A DNA stretch of 64,000 nucleotides, taken from assembly GCA_022823725.1 (NCBI GenBank), contig JAJEHL010000023.1:1-64000 (forward strand). The letters run 5' to 3'. The first letter of the stretch is position 1. The number at the start of each line of letters is the position of its first letter. The translations under genes and the position numbers were made by a program. Below the pieces are notes generated by a model that was not told the DNA's origin, did no database searches, and was given only the letters and a program-made list of their open reading frames with translations. The stretch comes from Candidatus Latescibacterota bacterium. GTDB taxonomy: Bacteria; Latescibacterota; UBA2968. Below, one piece after another: positions 125 to 14,482 of this stretch.

Positions 125-343
125 TTATCTGAAGCATAACAGAACAACAGCTCTCTTCCCTTCTGCATCAGTAATAGCTGATCTTTCTCGAGCCGCTATG
201 ATCTCGGCAAAACATACATCGGTGAGGTGAAAAGACCATCCTTTTTTTGCCATTTTGACGAAGGTAGAGAACCATTCAGGTTCAGATTTGGTATGGCACA
301 GCTTGCGAAAAATTCCGGTGTCTAATGCAACTCGTTTTGGCAT
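125..343 (-). CDS. PIN-like domain protein, probably truncated
   Basis: A 72-codon frame starts at 343 behind AAAGGA with 7-base spacing. It opens with V-A-L-D-T-G-I-F, which fits the first acidic residue of a PIN ribonuclease fold, and later has L-T-D-V-C-F-A-E-I-I, which fits the second acidic position. Complete PIN domains are about 120-140 residues, so the C-terminal half with the remaining acidic residues is missing. The stop lies 3 bases from the apparent insertion-sequence end at 121, so IS insertion or decay near it probably removed the rest. PIN proteins are commonly VapC-type toxins; no convincing antitoxin gene is visible upstream at 344-597. Family call is tentative. Confidence 0.4.
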   Translation of the reverse strand: MPKRVALDTGIFRKLCHTKSEPEWFSTFVKMAKKGWSFHLTDVCFAEIIAARERSAITDAEGKRAVVLLCFR

Positions 344-784: not shown

Positions 785-884
785 AATTCGTTACCTCAAG
801 GAGTTTACTCCTTCTCAAAAGTTCATTCTCGATCACCGAGTCCGCGTTTTTCTACGTGCGAAGGTATTCAGTTCATGCCGCACT

Positions 885-1003
885 AACGATCCGATGCTTC
901 ATTCCGCATCAACCAATTTCCCATCTTTGAATATCAGTTTCAAGTCGTCGTACGTGAGAACGGTTTTGGAGCCTAGTACAACCCGCGTTTTGGGTTTGCC
1001 TTT
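885..1003. repeat. 119-bp direct repeat, copy A (duplicated gene 3' end)
   Basis: This copy matches 4358-4476 over 119 bases with no gap and 6 mismatches. On the minus strand it encodes the last 34 codons plus stop (899-1003) of the secreted-protein gene at 4372-5037, without the rest of that gene. The coding differences are four silent changes (Thr, Arg, Leu and Glu codons) and a TGA-for-TAA stop; the sixth is just after the stop. Together with copy B it brackets the restriction-modification module. Confidence 0.9.
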
Positions 1004-1105
1004 TCGGACTTGACTTAAATAAACTGATGAACACAACCTTTATCAAATAGAAAATGATAAGCGTGACGAAAAAAATGGCGGCTATCCAATTTCATTTGGT
1101 TTTAA

Positions 1106-1122
1106 TTTACACGCCGTGTAAA
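1106..1122. promoter_or_regulatory. 17-bp palindrome, possible operator of the methylase gene
   Basis: The sequence TTTACACGCCGTGTAAA is a perfect 8-bp-arm inverted repeat around one central base. It ends 9 bases upstream of the proposed -35 box. The downstream gene starts with a helix-turn-helix segment, so autoregulation like that of C-protein R-M systems is plausible. That link is inference. Confidence 0.5.
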
Positions 1123-1131
1123 ATTTTTGCA

Positions 1132-1159
1132 TTGCATTTTCGCTCACAGTCTGTATAAT
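1132..1159 (+). promoter_or_regulatory. Sigma-70-type promoter of the methylase gene
   Basis: A TTGCAT box at 1132-1137 is followed after 16 bases by a perfect TATAAT at 1154-1159. Transcription would start near 1166. This falls downstream of the longest possible reading frame start (1127), which supports the ATG at 1208 as the real start. Confidence 0.65.
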
Positions 1160-1207
1160 TGTAATGTTCTCTTAACAGATACAAATTCTCGATTTTGGGG
1201 GCAAATC

Positions 1208-3466
1208 ATGAAATCGGTTTCAGAAATGATTCACGAACTCACGAAACTATATCACTATAGCATCGAATCTTTGGGAAGTGAACTCGGAGTTTCTACCTCT
1301 ACCATTAATCGATGGAAAAACAAAAAAAGCAAACCGAGGCCACTCATCGAAGGTGAACTTCGCAAAATTTATAAACGGAGCACATCTTCCGCGATGTTGA
1401 CGCGAGAGCCAGACATTCAGTGGCCGCTTTTTAAGCAGGAGATCGATATTCGTGAGGCCATGGACACGACTTTGCGTGAGCTAAGGGAAATACTCCACAG
1501 GCGAGGCAGGATGTCATCGAGAAATGAAGCGGTAGAGGAGTTGTCCAAGCTCTTATTTGTCCATGTAATGGCTATTGGAGAAGGCAGAGGCGGAATATCT
1601 CAAAAGAGTATGAGAGAGAATTTTCCCGGAATGAGTATGGCGAAGGCTTTAAGAACTTTCGTAAAGGAGATTTACGAGGCGTATTTGCCCATGTCAATTG
1701 GACACGAGTTGCAGGAAACCGATTATGAATTAAAGATCAAAGAGAGTGAAGAAGACCTGATTCTTGAGATACTTCAATGTTTCGAGACGCTCTCTTCTGA
1801 ATCTGAGTCATTCGACATCAGTGGAATCAAAGGCGTTGATTTTCTAAACGATGTATTTGGCCGATTTTTATCAGATTCTTTTGTAGATGAAAAGCAACTT
1901 GGGCAATATCTGACGCCCACAGAAGTTGTAAATTTTATGGTTAAACTCGCAATTCAAGAAATGTCCGACAATGAATTGAGGATCTTGACCCATCCCGAAC
2001 GGTGCAGAGAATTTGGATTTATTCTCGACCCATCATGTGGCGTTGGTTCTTTCTTAACCGAGATATTGAGATTTCTTCACCATGAAGTTGCTTCAAAAAA
2101 TGACGAGCGAATAACTCGGCAATGGTTATCCAATATGGTACATGATGTCCTGGTTGGCATTGATAAAAGTGAGCGCATGATTAAATTGGCATTGACAAAT
2201 ATGGCTATGTTCACCCTTCCAGCAACCAGACTTTTTCTCGCCAATGCGCTGGTCAGATTTGGAGGCGATGCTAAAGAACTGGCATTTTTAGAAGGGCAAA
2301 CAGGACTCATTCTAACCAACCCGCCATTTGGAGCGGAATTCAAAGGAGATGATTTAGCTGGCTTTCAAATTGCCAACAAATGGTTAAATCATATACCGCG
2401 CAAACTCGATTCAGAATTGCTTTTTGTCGAACGCTATTTGGATTGGTTAATTCCGGGCGGGCAATTGCTGGCTATTGTGCCCGATAGCATTCTAACAAAT
2501 AAAGGGTTATATCAAACGCTTAGAAAAAACATCGCCGATCAAGTAGAGATTAAAAGTGTGATTTCACTGCCAAATGTCACTTTTGGGGCCGCAGGCACGA
2601 ACACAAAAACCTCTATTCTCCATTTGAGAAAACGAAAAAATAAAAAATCAAGTGCAACACCGACTTTTTTTGCCATTTGTAATAATATCGGTTATTCCGT
2701 CAGCACAAGAGAATCTCAAAGAAAAAAAGTATTCAATGGCGAAAGTGATCTTCCTCGAATTTTAGAGGAACGTACAAAGCACGCCCCCAAAAATGTATGC
2801 GGACGTTTTGTCAAAGCAGTAGAAAAAAAAGAACGGTGGGATGCAAATTACCATGCAACCTTACCACCTGAAATTGAAGAGATCCTCGTCAATCGTTCCA
2901 ATACCCATGTATTCCTCTCAGATGTATCTGAACTCTCAACGGAGCGAAGTGATCCAAGAAGATCGGGCAATGGTAATTTCTTATATATAGAAATATCCGA
3001 TGTCAATGCAGAAATGTGCAAAGCAACAGGCAAAAAATTAAAATGCTCGGAGGCTCCAAGCAGGGCGAGAAAAGTTGTACACGCTGGAGACATTTTATTT
3101 TCTACGGTTAGACCTGAAAGAAGAACCGTTGCGCGAGTCACAGAGGAACAAGAAGGCGCAATTTGCACGACGGGATTTGCAGTTCTTCGGCCAAAGGGCA
3201 TAGATTCTCTGGTGCTGGCACAGATTCTAAGGACTGATTTCGTATGCCAACAAGTGCTCAGAAATAATATCGGTATTGCATATCCCGCTATCGATGAATC
3301 TTGTTTGCTTGACATCCTTCTTCCCATAGCGAAAAAGGATCTAAAAAACCTTGCAACACAGGCGCAAACTATCGTCCAGGCCGAATCGGAACTGGAGGCA
3401 CTCCGCACAGAATTTCAGGACAAAATTCAGAAACGAATTGCTACCTGGAAACAAAAAATAGCTTAA
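1208..3466 (+). CDS. HTH-N6-adenine methylase-specificity fusion protein
   Basis: The 752-residue product appears to combine three activities. Residues about 10-35 form a helix-turn-helix (S-I-E-S-L-G-S-E-L-G-V-S-T-S-T-I-N-R-W). The middle is a type I HsdM-like N6-adenine methylase with S-adenosylmethionine motif D-P-S-C-G-V-G-S-F near 274 and catalytic N-P-P-F near 371, plus the HsdM-typical Q-Y-L-T-P near 233. From about 540 to the end it resembles one HsdS target-recognition half (G-D-I-L-F-S-T-V-R-P) and a coiled-coil tail. One polypeptide would therefore read and methylate its site, like type IIG or M-S fusions, but no nuclease domain is seen. The ATG at 1208 follows a GGGGG ribosome site and lies behind the promoter at 1132-1159. 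The stop overlaps that of the convergent nuclease-like gene by four bases. Confidence 0.8.
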   Translation: MKSVSEMIHELTKLYHYSIESLGSELGVSTSTINRWKNKKSKPRPLIEGELRKIYKRSTSSAMLTREPDIQWPLFKQEIDIREAMDTTLRELREILHRRGRMSSRNEAVEELSKLLFVHVMAIGEGRGGISQKSMRENFPGMSMAKALRTFVKEIYEAYLPMSIGHELQETDYELKIKESEEDLILEILQCFETLSSESESFDISGIKGVDFLNDVFGRFLSDSFVDEKQLGQYLTPTEVVNFMVKLAIQEMSDNELRILTHPERCREFGFILDPSCGVGSFLTEILRFLHHEVASKNDERITRQWLSNMVHDVLVGIDKSERMIKLALTNMAMFTLPATRLFLANALVRFGGDAKELAFLEGQTGLILTNPPFGAEFKGDDLAGFQIANKWLNHIPRKLDSELLFVERYLDWLIPGGQLLAIVPDSILTNKGLYQTLRKNIADQVEIKSVISLPNVTFGAAGTNTKTSILHLRKRKNKKSSATPTFFAICNNIGYSVSTRESQRKKVFNGESDLPRILEERTKHAPKNVCGRFVKAVEKKERWDANYHATLPPEIEEILVNRSNTHVFLSDVSELSTERSDPRRSGNGNFLYIEISDVNAEMCKATGKKLKCSEAPSRARKVVHAGDILFSTVRPERRTVARVTEEQEGAICTTGFAVLRPKGIDSLVLAQILRTDFVCQQVLRNNIGIAYPAIDESCLLDILLPIAKKDLKNLATQAQTIVQAESELEALRTEFQDKIQKRIATWKQKIA

Positions 3467-4335
3467 TTCAAATGCCATACTTCATCAATCGTGCCAAACC
3501 AAACGCCATCTCCAATCTCACATCTCGGATTCTGGTTCACATGTTCCGGGTATCCCGATGCTGGCGGCAACCCATAAGGTTTTTCATAGCTCGGTACAGA
3601 CCTCGCAAAAGCAAAATCTCTTATATTGCCTGTTCTCAAAAATAGGCTTACTGCGAATATATCCTGAGTCGCGTATTTACAACTGCTTATAGGATAATCT
3701 TTTCCTGTGCTGTGAATAAGACGAGCGAAATCTGTGTTTGTCCCCCAGAGAGATTTTACTTCCACTTTTTTTATTACGCCATATCGTTCAAATTCAAAAT
3801 CGTAATTATAGTATCGTCCCAGGTGTCTTGCCATGTCCTCAGGCATACGACGCACATTATATCCACTGGCGACAGCGATGCGTGACAAAGAATACTCTAC
3901 CAATCCACTCAAGACCTTGGGTGCTGCACCATATTGGTCTATTTCCAAATAGTCGTTGACGGTTAATATTTCAAGAGCTTCGATTAGTTTGCCTTTCGAT
4001 CCTCCTGTATAAATTTCACCCTCAGCAGTCTCTCCATTGTTCTTGATCTCAAGTATCCGCCCCTTGGCAATCTCTCGCCAAACATCACCTTTGAGATGTC
4101 CTTCCGGAATGAATTTGCCCGTTCGGCCTATTTGCATTAATTCCTGCCATTCATCCTGTATTTTTACTGTGAAAGTCGCACGGTAATGGGATTGTCCGGG
4201 AAGCTTAACAATAGTTTTATCTAAAGAATGGATGGGGATGAGGACTGGACAAAGAACCTTCTCCAAACCTTCTAAATCTACGCCACCATAGCGATGTGCA
4301 ATTTTCTCAAAGAGATTTCGATAATTTTTGTTCAC
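3463..4335 (-). CDS. Putative PD-(D/E)XK restriction endonuclease partner
   Basis: This 290-residue protein starts with GTG at 4335 behind GGAG with 9-base spacing. Residues 179-194 read D-F-E-F-E, then nine residues, then E-V-K, a spacing compatible with the D...ExK core of PD-(D/E)XK nucleases. The next residues S-L-W-G-T-N-T resemble the segment after the core in some restriction enzymes. It sits tail-to-tail with the methylase fusion, sharing four bases at the stops, and both lie between the direct repeats. The likely role is to cut DNA not methylated by the partner. No separate promoter is obvious; it lies 36 bases after the stop of the gene at 4372-5037 and could be read from that operon. 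The nuclease assignment is inference. Confidence 0.6.
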   Translation of the reverse strand: MNKNYRNLFEKIAHRYGGVDLEGLEKVLCPVLIPIHSLDKTIVKLPGQSHYRATFTVKIQDEWQELMQIGRTGKFIPEGHLKGDVWREIAKGRILEIKNNGETAEGEIYTGGSKGKLIEALEILTVNDYLEIDQYGAAPKVLSGLVEYSLSRIAVASGYNVRRMPEDMARHLGRYYNYDFEFERYGVIKKVEVKSLWGTNTDFARLIHSTGKDYPISSCKYATQDIFAVSLFLRTGNIRDFAFARSVPSYEKPYGLPPASGYPEHVNQNPRCEIGDGVWFGTIDEVWHLN

Positions 4336-4357
4336 GAAAAATCTCCGTCCTCAATCC

Positions 4358-4476
4358 AACGATCCGATACTTTACTCCGCATCAACCAATTTCCCATCTT
4401 TGAATATCAGTTTCAAGTCGTCGTACGTGAGAACGGTTTTGGAGCCGAGTACAACGCGTGTTTTGGGTTTGCCTTT
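4358..4476. repeat. 119-bp direct repeat, copy B (3' end of the resident gene)
   Basis: This copy is fused in frame to the complete secreted-protein gene and supplies its last 34 codons, TAA stop and 14 downstream bases. Its outer edge lies 22 bases from the GTG start of the nuclease-like gene, so the bracketed module begins directly at the 3' end of the resident gene. See copy A for the comparison. Confidence 0.9.
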
Positions 4477-5037
4477 CAGGGCGATCACTTCTTCAATAGA
4501 CATATTCATTTTGAGCAAAACGGTATCTTCAGCACCCTCTAATTCCGCTTCGCTTGCCGCAAAGGCAATATTGAAAAGACGTTCAACTTCGGAAATCGTG
4601 TACTTATCCCTATTGACCTTGAGGCGAACGGCATGGCGGGCACCTGACAGTCTGTCGAGTTCAATATAAACCTCTTTCTCCCTTGCCTCGGCTTTTCGGA
4701 TTTGAACTTTCGCGCCCCTTTGGATCACCCGCACACTCCACCCCGCAAGCTCATCTCTTATAATGATATTTCGGACCTCTTCGGCAAAATCCTCTGCTGA
4801 CTGAGATTGGGACTGGCGAAAACCGCCTATTGTGGCGCGGTATGAAACCTCGCCATTCTCCAGAACATTTGCCGCATCAATGCCTCGAATCCCGTCATTC
4901 ACCTCTACAAAATCGATTTTGATCCAGAACGTCTTGCCTTTAATCGCCGCAACATGGCTTTTTACATCTGCCAGTTGCGCCTGCACCGTTTGAACTGAAA
5001 CAATAATCATCGATAAAAAAGCCACAAAAAAACGCAT
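4372..5037 (-). CDS. Secreted protein with BamE-like C-terminal motif
   Basis: The frame is open to 5118, but the start at 5037 has GGAGAG upstream and gives a clean signal peptide (M-R-F-F-V-A-F-L-S-M-I-I-V, then Q-T-V-Q-A). The mature part of about 200 residues is charged. The end carries S-I-E-E-V-I-A-L-K-G-K-P-K and K-L-I-F-K-D-G-K-L, a pattern seen in SmpA/BamE-like small domains of outer-membrane assembly proteins. It is the last gene of the minus-strand run that starts at 11845. Its final 34 codons are duplicated at 899-1003, and the nuclease-like gene starts immediately downstream. Function unknown. Confidence 0.65.
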   Translation of the reverse strand: MRFFVAFLSMIIVSVQTVQAQLADVKSHVAAIKGKTFWIKIDFVEVNDGIRGIDAANVLENGEVSYRATIGGFRQSQSQSAEDFAEEVRNIIIRDELAGWSVRVIQRGAKVQIRKAEAREKEVYIELDRLSGARHAVRLKVNRDKYTISEVERLFNIAFAASEAELEGAEDTVLLKMNMSIEEVIALKGKPKTRVVLGSKTVLTYDDLKLIFKDGKLVDAE

Positions 5038-7269: not shown

Positions 7270-8007
7270 TCAGTTGATATCGCGCAACCCTTCCCAGTGA
7301 TCCCACAGATCGAAGGGCAGATCGAACATGATATCGCGCAGATTTTTGAAAGCAAAGCGATTGACAAGCGCCATGCGGATATCTGTACGACAGTTCATAC
7401 TCGCCGTATGCAGCATATAGTGGTGCCAAAAGCAAACCGTTCCCGCAGGTGCGGCGTGTTCATAGCGCGTATCGGGATGTAAAAAGCCGGGCACTTTGAG
7501 ACCGCTCAAATTAGTCAGCGCATGCGCCTGAAAGTATCGGGCAACCTTGAGGTGTGCCCCCGCCCATGTGGTAAAACCGCCACCCTGGGGCAAAACATCG
7601 CTGATATTGATGGTAACGGCAACGGTAAAAGTATCCGCCACACCTTCGATGAGATACCCATCCAGATGCCCTCTCGGAGGCTGCCAGTCCGTGTGACCGC
7701 AGGGATAGATCATCTTACACAGCCCATTGCCTGGCGGGCGAAGACGCCCCTTACCCGCGAGTTCTTCGGCCATGTCGTAAAGCGGTGTATCGGTCCTCAT
7801 AGCCGCGACTGCGGGATGGTCGCTACACGGCAGATTGCCTTTTGGCCCCGCGTTGATCCATGTCTGAGGATCATCGCGATCCGCCTCAATATATTCCCAC
7901 ACGGCATCCCGCGCATTTTTGAGCAACTCTGGTGCAATCAGATCGGGTTTGATAACGTAGCCATTTTTTTTGAAAAAGGCTTTTTCTTCGTTGGAAAAAT
8001 AAGACAT
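7270..8007 (-). CDS. Phytanoyl-CoA dioxygenase (PhyH) family protein
   Basis: A 245-residue Fe(II)/2-oxoglutarate-dependent oxygenase of the PhyH type. Residues 114-116 are H-L-D (the HxD iron ligands) in G-H-L-D-G-Y. The distal histidine lies near 200 in H-T-A-S-M-N, followed by an arginine that would bind 2-oxoglutarate. The ATG at 8007 is preferred over an in-frame TTG six bases upstream because GGGAG is spaced correctly for it. In this operon it probably hydroxylates a small substrate shared with the dehydrogenases; a phytanoyl-CoA substrate is not implied. Confidence 0.85.
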   Translation of the reverse strand: MSYFSNEEKAFFKKNGYVIKPDLIAPELLKNARDAVWEYIEADRDDPQTWINAGPKGNLPCSDHPAVAAMRTDTPLYDMAEELAGKGRLRPPGNGLCKMIYPCGHTDWQPPRGHLDGYLIEGVADTFTVAVTINISDVLPQGGGFTTWAGAHLKVARYFQAHALTNLSGLKVPGFLHPDTRYEHAAPAGTVCFWHHYMLHTASMNCRTDIRMALVNRFAFKNLRDIMFDLPFDLWDHWEGLRDIN

Positions 8008-10318: not shown

Positions 10319-11845
10319 TTACTGTCGGTCGGCAGTGATACCGCGCCAGTCATCCGTGCGAAATGGCGATGCCGGCAAACCTGCCCCATTGTACAAATTG
10401 CAAATCGGATTGTCTGCCCAGGCGTATCGGACAGCAACGGGCTGCTGCACATCGTTGCTCCAGACCAGCACATCGTCGCCATCAATCTTTGCCTCTGCCC
10501 AGACAAATTTGCGATCTTGCCCTGCAATCGCAAAACCCTTGAGCATATCACCTTTGGTTTTTAAGCCGCCATACGCGTGATCAAATCGCAAGCGAATTTT
10601 GCCTTCTTCAATCGCCATAGACCGATAAATGGGACCAGAATGCGGTTGATCCACATCATAGACCATAGCTTCTGCACCCAGAGCCAGACGCAATCCGACA
10701 TCCTGTTTATTCTTCGGGTGAATATCGTCTGCCTCGCCAATATCAATCGCCACAGCCATACCAGTATTGGGCAATGAAAGCGTCATCAATTGCGCCTCGC
10801 GCAATTCAGCCCAGGCACTCTCCTCTGGATTGTCCACTACCTGCCTGAAATTGGCAAGCTGCACAAAGAAAAACGGAAACGCGCCCTGCCCCCAACTCGA
10901 CCGCCAGTTCTGAATCATCGCCGGAAACAACGCGCGATATTGATACGCGCGACCAGCATTTGATTCCCCCTGATACCAGATCGCACCTCGAACACCATAG
11001 GGAACGAGAGGCGCGATCATCCCATTATAGAGCACAGATGGGCGATGGGGATGATTCGGGCCGCGCGGTGCTCGCGGGCGGCGCTGCCCCAGAGCGCGCA
11101 AGCTGTCGGTGTTAGCACGCCATACTGCGAGCCTGGCCTGGAATCTCTCCTGAGCTTCTGGATAAGCTGAAATGTGTTCTGCCCAGCGTTTTCCCAGCGG
11201 CGCATACTCCGGCAAAACTTGAAGCGCGGGCAATGACGTCCATGCTTCAGCCGGCGTGCCTCCCCAGGATGTATTGATAAGACCAACAGGCACATTCAAG
11301 GTCTTGTGCAGGCGGCGCCCAAAATAATAAGCCACCGCAGAAAAATTGCCGACACTACCCGTATCGCATACACTCCATGCGCCCTCAACATCTTGCGCGG
11401 GCCTTTGAGCGGCACTGCGTTTAACCGTAAAAAGCCTGATATTGGGATAATCTGCCGCTTTGATTTCCTCCTCCGCATTTTGAGAACGCCTGACAGCCCA
11501 GGCCATATTGGACTGTCCCGAGCAAACCCAGACCTCCCCCACCATCACATTTTTAAACGTGATGACATTCTCGCCGCGCACGGTGAGTTGATATGGGCCT
11601 CCCGCATCCATAGGACTCAGGTAAATCTGCCATGTACCCCCTGCATCTGCTGTGGTCGTCACGCGCTGGGTATCTAACTCAATGGTAATCTCTTCATTGG
11701 CACTGGCATTTCCCCACACAGATATTGCAATTTGCCGCTGCAACACCATGTTATCTGAAAAAATCGTGGGCAGAGAAACATCTGCGAGAATGGGACAGGG
11801 AAGCAATAACAGTAGGGCGACAATGAATTTGCTGATAGTAGTCAT
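10319..11845 (-). CDS. Sialate O-acetylesterase-like secreted carbohydrate esterase
   Basis: The 508-residue product begins with a signal peptide (M-T-T-I-S-K-F-I-V-A-L-L-L-L-L, cleavage near residue 21). It shows the SASA/GDSL-like nucleophile box V-C-S-G-Q-S-N-M with Ser112 and the late D-D-I-H-P box with the catalytic His near 375. Such enzymes remove acetyl groups from sialic acid or xylan-type glycans in the periplasm or outside the cell. The frame is open 22 codons further upstream, but the ATG at 11845 has AGGAAA upstream and gives the signal peptide. It is the first gene of a seven-gene minus-strand run down to 4372, so deacetylation is probably the first step of that pathway. Confidence 0.85.
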   Translation of the reverse strand: MTTISKFIVALLLLLPCPILADVSLPTIFSDNMVLQRQIAISVWGNASANEEITIELDTQRVTTTADAGGTWQIYLSPMDAGGPYQLTVRGENVITFKNVMVGEVWVCSGQSNMAWAVRRSQNAEEEIKAADYPNIRLFTVKRSAAQRPAQDVEGAWSVCDTGSVGNFSAVAYYFGRRLHKTLNVPVGLINTSWGGTPAEAWTSLPALQVLPEYAPLGKRWAEHISAYPEAQERFQARLAVWRANTDSLRALGQRRPRAPRGPNHPHRPSVLYNGMIAPLVPYGVRGAIWYQGESNAGRAYQYRALFPAMIQNWRSSWGQGAFPFFFVQLANFRQVVDNPEESAWAELREAQLMTLSLPNTGMAVAIDIGEADDIHPKNKQDVGLRLALGAEAMVYDVDQPHSGPIYRSMAIEEGKIRLRFDHAYGGLKTKGDMLKGFAIAGQDRKFVWAEAKIDGDDVLVWSNDVQQPVAVRYAWADNPICNLYNGAGLPASPFRTDDWRGITADRQ

Positions 11846-12739: not shown

Positions 12740-14482
12740 TTGGAAAATGGACAAAAAACGATCAGAGGATTGTTCGATGGTAGTAAAATTTTTAACATCC
12801 CAAAGTATCAGCGAGCTTACGCTTGGGAAAAAGAGCACCTCGAAGACTTTGTCGATGACATAGAAAATCAAAAATTAGACAAAGATTACTTTTTTGGCAC
12901 TATCCTCTTTCAAGAAAAAAAGGAAATGTCGGATGATTTTGAAAACATTGACATTGTAGATGGACAACAGCGCATCACAACGCTTATCATTTTCATGAAA
13001 CTCCTTCTCGATCAACTTAGAGAAAATGGAAAAGAGAGCGAGATTAGGAGACTGGAAGACAGATATATTTGTCTTTACGGCGAGCACAAACTCCGCGTTT
13101 TGCAGGACGATAACGACTTCTTCAAATCCTATATATTGGGGGATAGCCCGCTCTCCAATGGTAATGTGCGAACGCCTTCTCAAGAACGGCTACGTAAGGC
13201 AAAAAATTACCTTCGTCAACGACTTGAAAACTACAAGCCTGAAAAATTGCGGGAGTTCAAGGACAAAATTGAGCGCACCAAGGTTTTGACCTATTCAGTT
13301 GAAGATGCTGCTGAGGCAACCCTGATCTTTGAGACGACCAATGATAGAGGCAAATCGCTGACCAATCTGGAGAAAACCAAGAGTTTTCTGATGTACAAGA
13401 CCTACCTTGCATCTGGCAATCCTGAGGACCATCTCGATACCATCCAAAGTCGATTTGGCGAAATCTACCGTGACTATGAGACAATCAAAAATCGGGTGGA
13501 TGGAGAAGATTCAATTTTGCAGTACCACTTCATCGCTTTTGAAAAATGGAATCACAGGAGTGAGTATCAGGATTATGTTCAAGCTCTCAAGAATAAGGTG
13601 AACAAACTTGTCAATGACAATAGACCGGAGGCATGGGATTTCATAGACAGGTACAGCCGCGAGTTGATGGAGAGTTTTGTAATAATAAAGGAGTTGCTTC
13701 TGAATAGCGAACCTCATCTCCGCGATATTTTTGCCCTCAATCGCGAAGCGATGTTTTATCCTCTGCTTGTCAAAGCCTACAAACTTGACGAATCGGATGG
13801 AAGGCAGAATTTCAAACGGGTTGCTCAACTGATCGAGATTATTTGCTTTCGTGTCTTCGGTATTCGGAGACGCCGCTCAATTACGGGACGTGAATATCTA
13901 TCCAGAAGAACCAGAGACTTTAATGGGAATTTCGAGGAACTGATCAATCAGCTTGAGCAGTTTGTTGACTGGTACTGCAATAATGACGAATTTGGTCGCT
14001 ATCTTTCGTCGCCTGACTTTCACAATGAGGTAAATCGTAATGATAAGAATTATCTCTTTTGGAAATACGAGAACCATCTCAGACAGACAGAGCAACCCAT
14101 CTTTCCTGAAATGTCTCAAGAGGAGTTTGCTAATCGTGGTCCGCGGACAAAGTTCTCAATTGAGCATATCATTCCCCAAAACCCCGGAGAAAGTAAGGTG
14201 GTTGAGAAGGGATCAACGATAATCGCAGAAATTGAAGAAAATTTTCTCCATGATATTGGAAATTTGACAATTGATCCGAAATCTGCGAATAGCAGCAAGT
14301 TGAATCGTCCCTTCGAGTACAAAGATCAAAATTATTTCCGTAAAGCCCCTCTTAAGACGCAAAATGAGTTGAGTGATTTCCTCAACCAAGAAACAGGGCA
14401 ATGGGATCAGGATTCAATAGATCAAAGAAAAGAAAAGATTTTAGAATTTGCTTTGGACTATTGGGATCATAAAAAGGTCTAA
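12740..14482 (+). CDS. GmrSD-like DUF262/DUF1524 fusion, probable type IV restriction protein
   Basis: The proposed 580-residue product starts at the TTG at 12740, eight bases after AAGGAG at 12727-12732; the open frame extends to 12506 without family-like sequence. Residues 74-82 are D-G-Q-Q-R-I-T-T-L, the hallmark of DUF262 (ParB/Srx-like NTP-using domain), after a Y-Q-R-A-Y-A-W segment. Near 474-481 the C-terminal DUF1524 HNH nuclease shows I-E-H-I-I-P-Q-N, followed by N-L-T-I. Both halves of the GmrS/GmrD pair are thus in one chain, as in many single-chain homologues that cut modified phage DNA (family knowledge). It stands alone between the gene-poor stretch and the NTase/HEPN pair. Confidence 0.82.
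   Translation: MENGQKTIRGLFDGSKIFNIPKYQRAYAWEKEHLEDFVDDIENQKLDKDYFFGTILFQEKKEMSDDFENIDIVDGQQRITTLIIFMKLLLDQLRENGKESEIRRLEDRYICLYGEHKLRVLQDDNDFFKSYILGDSPLSNGNVRTPSQERLRKAKNYLRQRLENYKPEKLREFKDKIERTKVLTYSVEDAAEATLIFETTNDRGKSLTNLEKTKSFLMYKTYLASGNPEDHLDTIQSRFGEIYRDYETIKNRVDGEDSILQYHFIAFEKWNHRSEYQDYVQALKNKVNKLVNDNRPEAWDFIDRYSRELMESFVIIKELLLNSEPHLRDIFALNREAMFYPLLVKAYKLDESDGRQNFKRVAQLIEIICFRVFGIRRRRSITGREYLSRRTRDFNGNFEELINQLEQFVDWYCNNDEFGRYLSSPDFHNEVNRNDKNYLFWKYENHLRQTEQPIFPEMSQEEFANRGPRTKFSIEHIIPQNPGESKVVEKGSTIIAEIEENFLHDIGNLTIDPKSANSSKLNRPFEYKDQNYFRKAPLKTQNELSDFLNQETGQWDQDSIDQRKEKILEFALDYWDHKKV

Follow-up and report, generated by a model that had tools for sequence, protein, structure and literature searches.

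Introduction

In tandem accretion of cis-mobilizable elements (CIMEs) at gene 3' ends, of the type described for ICESt1, a new unit enters an attachment site that contains the end of a gene and leaves a tandem arrangement (PMC5704250). Genomic islands at dusA supply their target gene with a new end, the original end becoming the outer boundary of the island, and one of these islands carries a type I restriction-modification (R-M) system (PMC4482086). Prophage e14 similarly brings a replacement 3' end for icd and leaves the displaced copy on its far side, over 165 bp with 12 exchanges, conservative in kind (PMC11148124). Long direct target repeats also flank R-M genes in insertions with long target duplication (Nobusato et al. 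2000, cited in PMC1643837 and PMC3031569). Here, we describe a two-gene R-M module bracketed by two copies of the 3' end of one protein-coding gene, hereafter the target gene, in a Candidatus Latescibacterota bacterium. The genome (G000) is a 5.3-Mb draft of 51 contigs, one of which, C7, contributes its first 64 kb as the window.

As in a CIME, attachment-like repeats lie on both sides of the module (885-1003 and 4358-4476), with only the nuclease (R) and methyltransferase (M) genes between them. Unlike ICESt1 and its CIMEs, the unit is about 3.5 kb long, its surroundings hold integrase remnants in place of conjugation genes or an intact integrase, and its movement is presumed; no ICE relative was identified. 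The dusA islands differ in using the 5' end of their target and not the 3' end, in having an intact integrase, and in that their excision has been demonstrated experimentally, whereas e14 is a prophage with its own intE and not a two-gene module. In the long target duplications the repeat is taken as a duplicated target; at the present locus the copies are two alleles and the junction recurs. An imported gene end together with a recurrent exact junction points to site-specific accretion rather than target duplication, in contrast to the Helicobacter R-M cases, which are interpreted as target duplication. The locus offers strain-level evidence, from a poorly studied phylum, on the origin of R-M genes bracketed by long repeats. 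We favor, with a probability of roughly 0.6, tandem accretion with gene-end replacement at an integration hotspot, as in CIMEs, the dusA islands and e14.

Two alleles of one gene end flank the module

The two copies and the target gene are the following.

885-1003, minus strand: copy A, a duplicate of the target-gene 3' end (coding part 899-1003, stop codon TGA), taken to be the displaced native end from the repeat match and the bases shared with strain G004 at three diagnostic sites
4358-4476, minus strand: copy B, the functional target-gene 3' end (coding part 4372-4476, stop codon TAA), taken to be an imported end from the repeat match and G002-like bases at the diagnostic sites
4372-5037, minus strand: the target gene, encoding an exported protein of 221 amino acids whose C-terminal domain is weakly like SmpA/OmlA (BamE/OsmE), described from conservation in the genus and Foldseek

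A repeat search places 885-1003 and 4358-4476 in a single ungapped family (119 nt, 95% identity), and direct comparison gives six mismatches. Five of these fall within the 105-nt coding part, where ACG/ACA, CGG/CGC, CTA/CTC and GAA/GAG are all silent and the fifth exchanges TGA for TAA; both copies translate to KGKPKTRVVLGSKTVLTYDDLKLIFKDGKLVDAE*, a stretch of 34 residues. The original prediction, made from the letters of the window, had described this match and its silent coding changes, and was right to the base. Random point changes in the repeat would be silent in 24% of cases (35% for transitions), and four silent changes out of four would be expected in 0.3-1.6% of cases. Most of the differences are polymorphisms that are also present in other strains and not new mutations. 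The further proposal that both copies were once functional gene ends is consequently well founded, A and B being two alleles that segregate in the genus.

Copies A and B are the only two in the G000 genome. A paralogue was considered as the source of copy A and ruled out: the genome holds one full gene and two 3' ends, and the second full-length paralogue that the prediction had named as a counter-indication is absent from it.

The target protein is conserved at 92-98% within the genus, and its N-terminal helix resembles a signal sequence. The C-terminus of its model is weakly like OsmE and BamE, with a Foldseek probability of about 0.9 and E-values that are not significant. No tRNA target was found near the insertion site. 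In strain G007 the gene is without its middle part, leaving 103 amino acids (L026:16424-16735), and there it seems dispensable.

The R-M module and a relative outside the home locus

1208-3466, plus strand: M, a DNA N6-adenine methyltransferase with a helix-turn-helix (HTH)-like N-terminus and an S-subunit-like C-terminal domain (Pfam N6_Mtase, E 8.8e-25; PADLOC MTase_I and Specificity_I)
3463-4335, minus strand: R, the partner restriction nuclease of 290 amino acids, predicted PD-(D/E)XK fold, convergent with M (invariant motif and AlphaFold2 (AF2) model)

The convergent arrangement of the two genes is kept in all 13 homologous loci, which come from several phyla, and E192-x-K194 of R is invariant across 13 homologues. 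The AF2 model of R (pLDDT 84) has the PD-(D/E)XK homing endonuclease I-Ssp6803I as its best PDB match (E 1.7e-4); this came from the fold search alone, as profile and sequence searches of PDB with R returned nothing. The HTH-like region of M was read from its sequence, with no family match. The pair makes up a predicted two-gene R-M system, a methyltransferase with a conserved nuclease partner. The nearest record of the module is labelled as phylum Candidatus Latescibacterota, and the search for the R protein on plasmids or phages gave no match.

A class-level relative, G041, carries an R/M pair that is 88-92% identical in protein and is inserted between unrelated genes that are adjacent in G040, G042 and G027. 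DNA homology with G041 covers 1166 to 4384 of the window, and so reaches into copy B; a separate homologous piece lies at 1103-1174. Beside the nuclease gene, 13 of 16 bases of the last codons of the target gene remain (chance about 2e-5 or less). There was no match to the target gene in G041, nor was a second copy of the core found beyond the far side of the module. These bases persist in a genome that shows no target-gene match, and they suggest that the module took along at least the tip of the target-gene end.

Direct repeats also border two other R-M pairs of this kind. In Terriglobia (L080) a 90-nt repeat at 88% lies on both sides (7470-7555 and 11329-11417), one copy beginning at the stop codon of the flanking gene, and in Nitrospira (L090) the repeat is 241 nt at 96%.

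Empty and differently filled sites in the genus

In relatives, the native 3' neighbor of the target gene is the 3' end of a convergent gene, named as an aldolase from its sequence without a family search. Five genomes of the same genus (G001, G003, G004, G006 and G010, the last across contigs C111 and C76) have an empty site, in which the ends of the two genes are about 12-15 nt apart. The uninterrupted locus that the original prediction had proposed to look for in relatives therefore exists, but in none of them does the gene run directly into the sequence left of 885, as had been anticipated; the aldolase gene stands there instead. The 14 nt past the stop codon that are common to copies A and B (AGYATCGGATCGTT) are part of the inserts and are absent at the empty site.

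Other strains have the same site filled differently. In G002 it holds 3.9 kb with an integrase fragment, NUDIX, PRA-PH and PIN_12 genes, an antitoxin-like gene, HicA and a HicB-like gene. In G007, which is complete and in a single contig, 3.65 kb lie between the two gene ends and comprise a staphylococcal-nuclease (SNase)-like gene, a second, partial target-gene end, genes for an FRG and a TPR protein, a duplicate of the aldolase 3' end, an antitoxin-like gene and HicA/HicB-like genes. In G005 the first codons of the R gene, a remnant of the R-M module, are followed by an integrase fragment. In G000 itself, the island on C7 runs from the R-M pair through copy A to an insertion sequence (IS) element at the contig end, and contig C16 carries the other end of such an IS, a TPR remnant, a duplicated aldolase end and an antitoxin-like gene, after which the shared downstream sequence follows; the two contigs are presumably joined across the island. 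The locus is thus a variable, defence-like spot in the genus, with R-M, SNase, FRG, PIN, HicA and Phd-like antitoxin genes.

Two further observations concern the neighborhood of these inserts. About 50 nt of the aldolase 3' end are duplicated beside the TPR gene in both G000 (C16:68442-68486, L041) and G007 (L026, near 13860-13910), so that duplication has affected the ends of both convergent genes here. In addition, a 272-nt antitoxin-like stretch is 98.5-99.3% identical among G000, G002 and G007 (L021:5082-5353, L026 and L041). Its flanks are only about 92% identical, which points to recent exchange of the stretch between strains.

Copy A resembles the sister strain and copy B does not

Trees of the flanks (4 kb downstream and 1.5 kb upstream) place G004 as the sister of G000, with support of 100/100 and 100/98, respectively. 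At the three sites that tell A from B and recur in other strains, copy A has the G004 bases (ACG; GAA TGA). Copy B has those of G002 (ACA; GAG TAA) and, at the last two of these sites, also matches G005, G007 and G001. Across the genus, the functional end reads GAG-TAA in four of four filled sites and GAA-TGA in three of five empty ones, the exceptions being G001 and G010. The strain comparison of the 3' ends that the prediction had suggested thus groups copy A with G004 and copy B with G002. Given that A has the bases of the sister strain and B those of G002, copy A most likely represents the native end after displacement, and copy B an imported one.

These data bear on whether the repeat arose by insertion with long target duplication, as in the Helicobacter pylori R-M cases, in which the host's own 119 nt would have been duplicated and no end imported. 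The outward structure would be identical, such events are reported to accompany R-M insertions frequently (PMC1643837 and PMC3031569), and a 90-nt direct repeat (88%) flanks the Terriglobia homologue as well. However, A and B are different segregating alleles rather than descendants of a single one, a contrast that later recombination could blur; the functional copy B appears to be non-native, and the G041 module keeps a piece of the gene end away from the gene itself. We therefore consider long target duplication rather unlikely.

The junction recurs at the same base in a second strain

984-1005, minus strand: junction 22-mer GAAAAGGCAAACCCAAAACGCG at the start of copy A, also exact at the second copy in G007

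Among the 46 genomes searched, GAAAAGGCAAACCCAAAACGCG has its only other exact occurrence at the second copy in G007, and the native sites that it matches differ by 2 bases. The G007 copy is partial, starts at the same base as copy A, accompanies different cargo (a nuclease gene) and has G007-type bases. Since these are the strain's own bases, the duplications in G000 and G007 look independent, and two independent duplications with one start base point to a fixed crossover, a case that consists of these two strains. A relative that lacks the module and still carries both repeat copies had been named beforehand as evidence against a mobile element. G007 is literally such a relative, with a partial second copy, but because that copy brackets other cargo in its own bases from the same start base, it supports a site-specific hotspot.

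The recurrence also bears on homology-facilitated illegitimate recombination, a mechanism known in bacteria (PMC3240628), in which a linear fragment from a G002/G005-like donor, carrying the gene end and the R-M genes, would have paired on one side and been joined illegitimately inside the gene on the other. A single step would then give both the imported end and the partial duplication, in keeping with G002-like bases found upstream of the repeat boundary and with the gene-to-R-M junction present in G005. Such a joint would fall at an arbitrary base, yet the junction 22-mer is common to G000 and G007, and we hold this route to be unlikely. An assembly chimera, in which strain variants of a metagenome were joined over the 119-nt overlap, comes to mind because the genome is a draft of 51 contigs and this contig ends at an IS 885 nt from copy A. 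This we regard as highly improbable, given that the gene-to-R-M junction is found again in G005, an arrangement of gene end and integrase remnant again in G002, and the start of copy A again in the single-contig G007.

Integrase remnants and an occupied site

833-883, minus strand: tyrosine integrase remnant, last 17 codons (VRHELNTFARRKTRTR*), adjoining copy A, recognized by its match to the integrase 3' ends of relatives

The stretch 811-883 matches the integrase 3' ends of G007, G009 and G002 at 83-85%; the integrase is Xer-like and akin to a stretch found at many loci in the genus. G002 has a longer fragment right past its target-gene end (Pfam Phage_integrase, E 1.9e-4, under the curated cut-off). 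Integrase remnants come directly after the gene end in G002, after the R-M remnant in G005 and after copy A in G000. Between copies A and B there is no integrase gene, the remnants lying outside the unit. The claim that the element is accompanied by no integrase thus has to be withdrawn for the locus, in view of the 17-codon remnant and the larger pieces in G002 and G005. With an integrase remnant directly past copy A, the R-M module entered a site that already held an older, decayed insert. The original prediction of an element, or a recombined allele, with a replacement 3' end is accordingly supported by the empty sites, the two alleles and the sister-strain bases of the distal copy, and needs amending in that the module arrived at an occupied site.

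Integrase 3'-end fragments also lie on both sides of AAA-ATPase/nuclease-like genes in G002 and G007 (L071 and L074), a further pattern of a module bracketed by gene ends.

A model of accretion and its weak points

Under tandem accretion with gene-end replacement, the gap between the convergent target and aldolase genes would be an integration hotspot in the genus. Units would enter the target gene by recombination at one fixed position in its 3' end, about 105 nt from where the gene ends, near (G)AAA(A)GGCAAACCC. Each would bring a replacement 3' end that keeps the gene intact, and the original end would be moved to the far side of the unit, where it would decay. In G000, an older insert with a tyrosine integrase would have arrived first, and the 3.5-kb R-M unit would later have accreted on the gene-proximal side of that insert, bringing copy B with it and leaving copy A as the displaced native end. 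We infer a tyrosine recombinase as the cutting enzyme, and a small, CIME-like element lacking an integrase as the form in which the unit moved.

Several points weigh against this model. The allele argument has just three diagnostic sites, in the G000 gene the G002-like bases set in before the repeat boundary, about 80 nt upstream of it (-181 to -154), and the target gene is a general mosaic in the genus; the last two indicate that ordinary homologous recombination has acted too. Because of this mosaicism, the evidence for a native A and an imported B is good but not compelling. Past copy A lies an integrase remnant and not the native aldolase flank, which requires two events. Remnants of this integrase family lie at many other loci, so that its link to this site is circumstantial; the unit has no intact integrase, and one pattern scan of viral contigs found no attP or circular form. 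The interval -181 to -154 was also considered as a G002-type donor tract, but neighboring sites contradict a clean tract and it was not used as proof.

A bolder extension, which we think quite doubtful, is that the genus hosts tiny integrase-less units with replacement ends of one host gene, moved in trans by an Xer-like recombinase, exemplified by a nuclease unit of about 0.75 kb in G007 and the 3.5-kb R-M unit here. If so, the 3' end of a protein gene would anchor a mini-cassette system, and the copy in G041 would be a unit that has departed from its home gene.

Other features near the contig end

1-141, minus strand: left end of an IS3-family-like insertion sequence at the contig break, translation MPKKRKHYTPEEKVSILRRHL
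128-343, minus strand: PIN_12-like fragment, lying in the older section of the island (Pfam PF16289, E 0.0027, under the curated cut-off)
1106-1122, no strand assigned: palindrome TTTACACG-C-CGTGTAAA with perfect 8-nt arms, a candidate operator upstream of the methyltransferase

Contig C7 breaks inside the IS element, 885 nt from copy A. The identical 141 nt open several contigs of G000 and of G005, and the DDE-transposase end matching this IS is found at the end of contig C16. A closely related palindrome lies upstream of the G041 methyltransferase.
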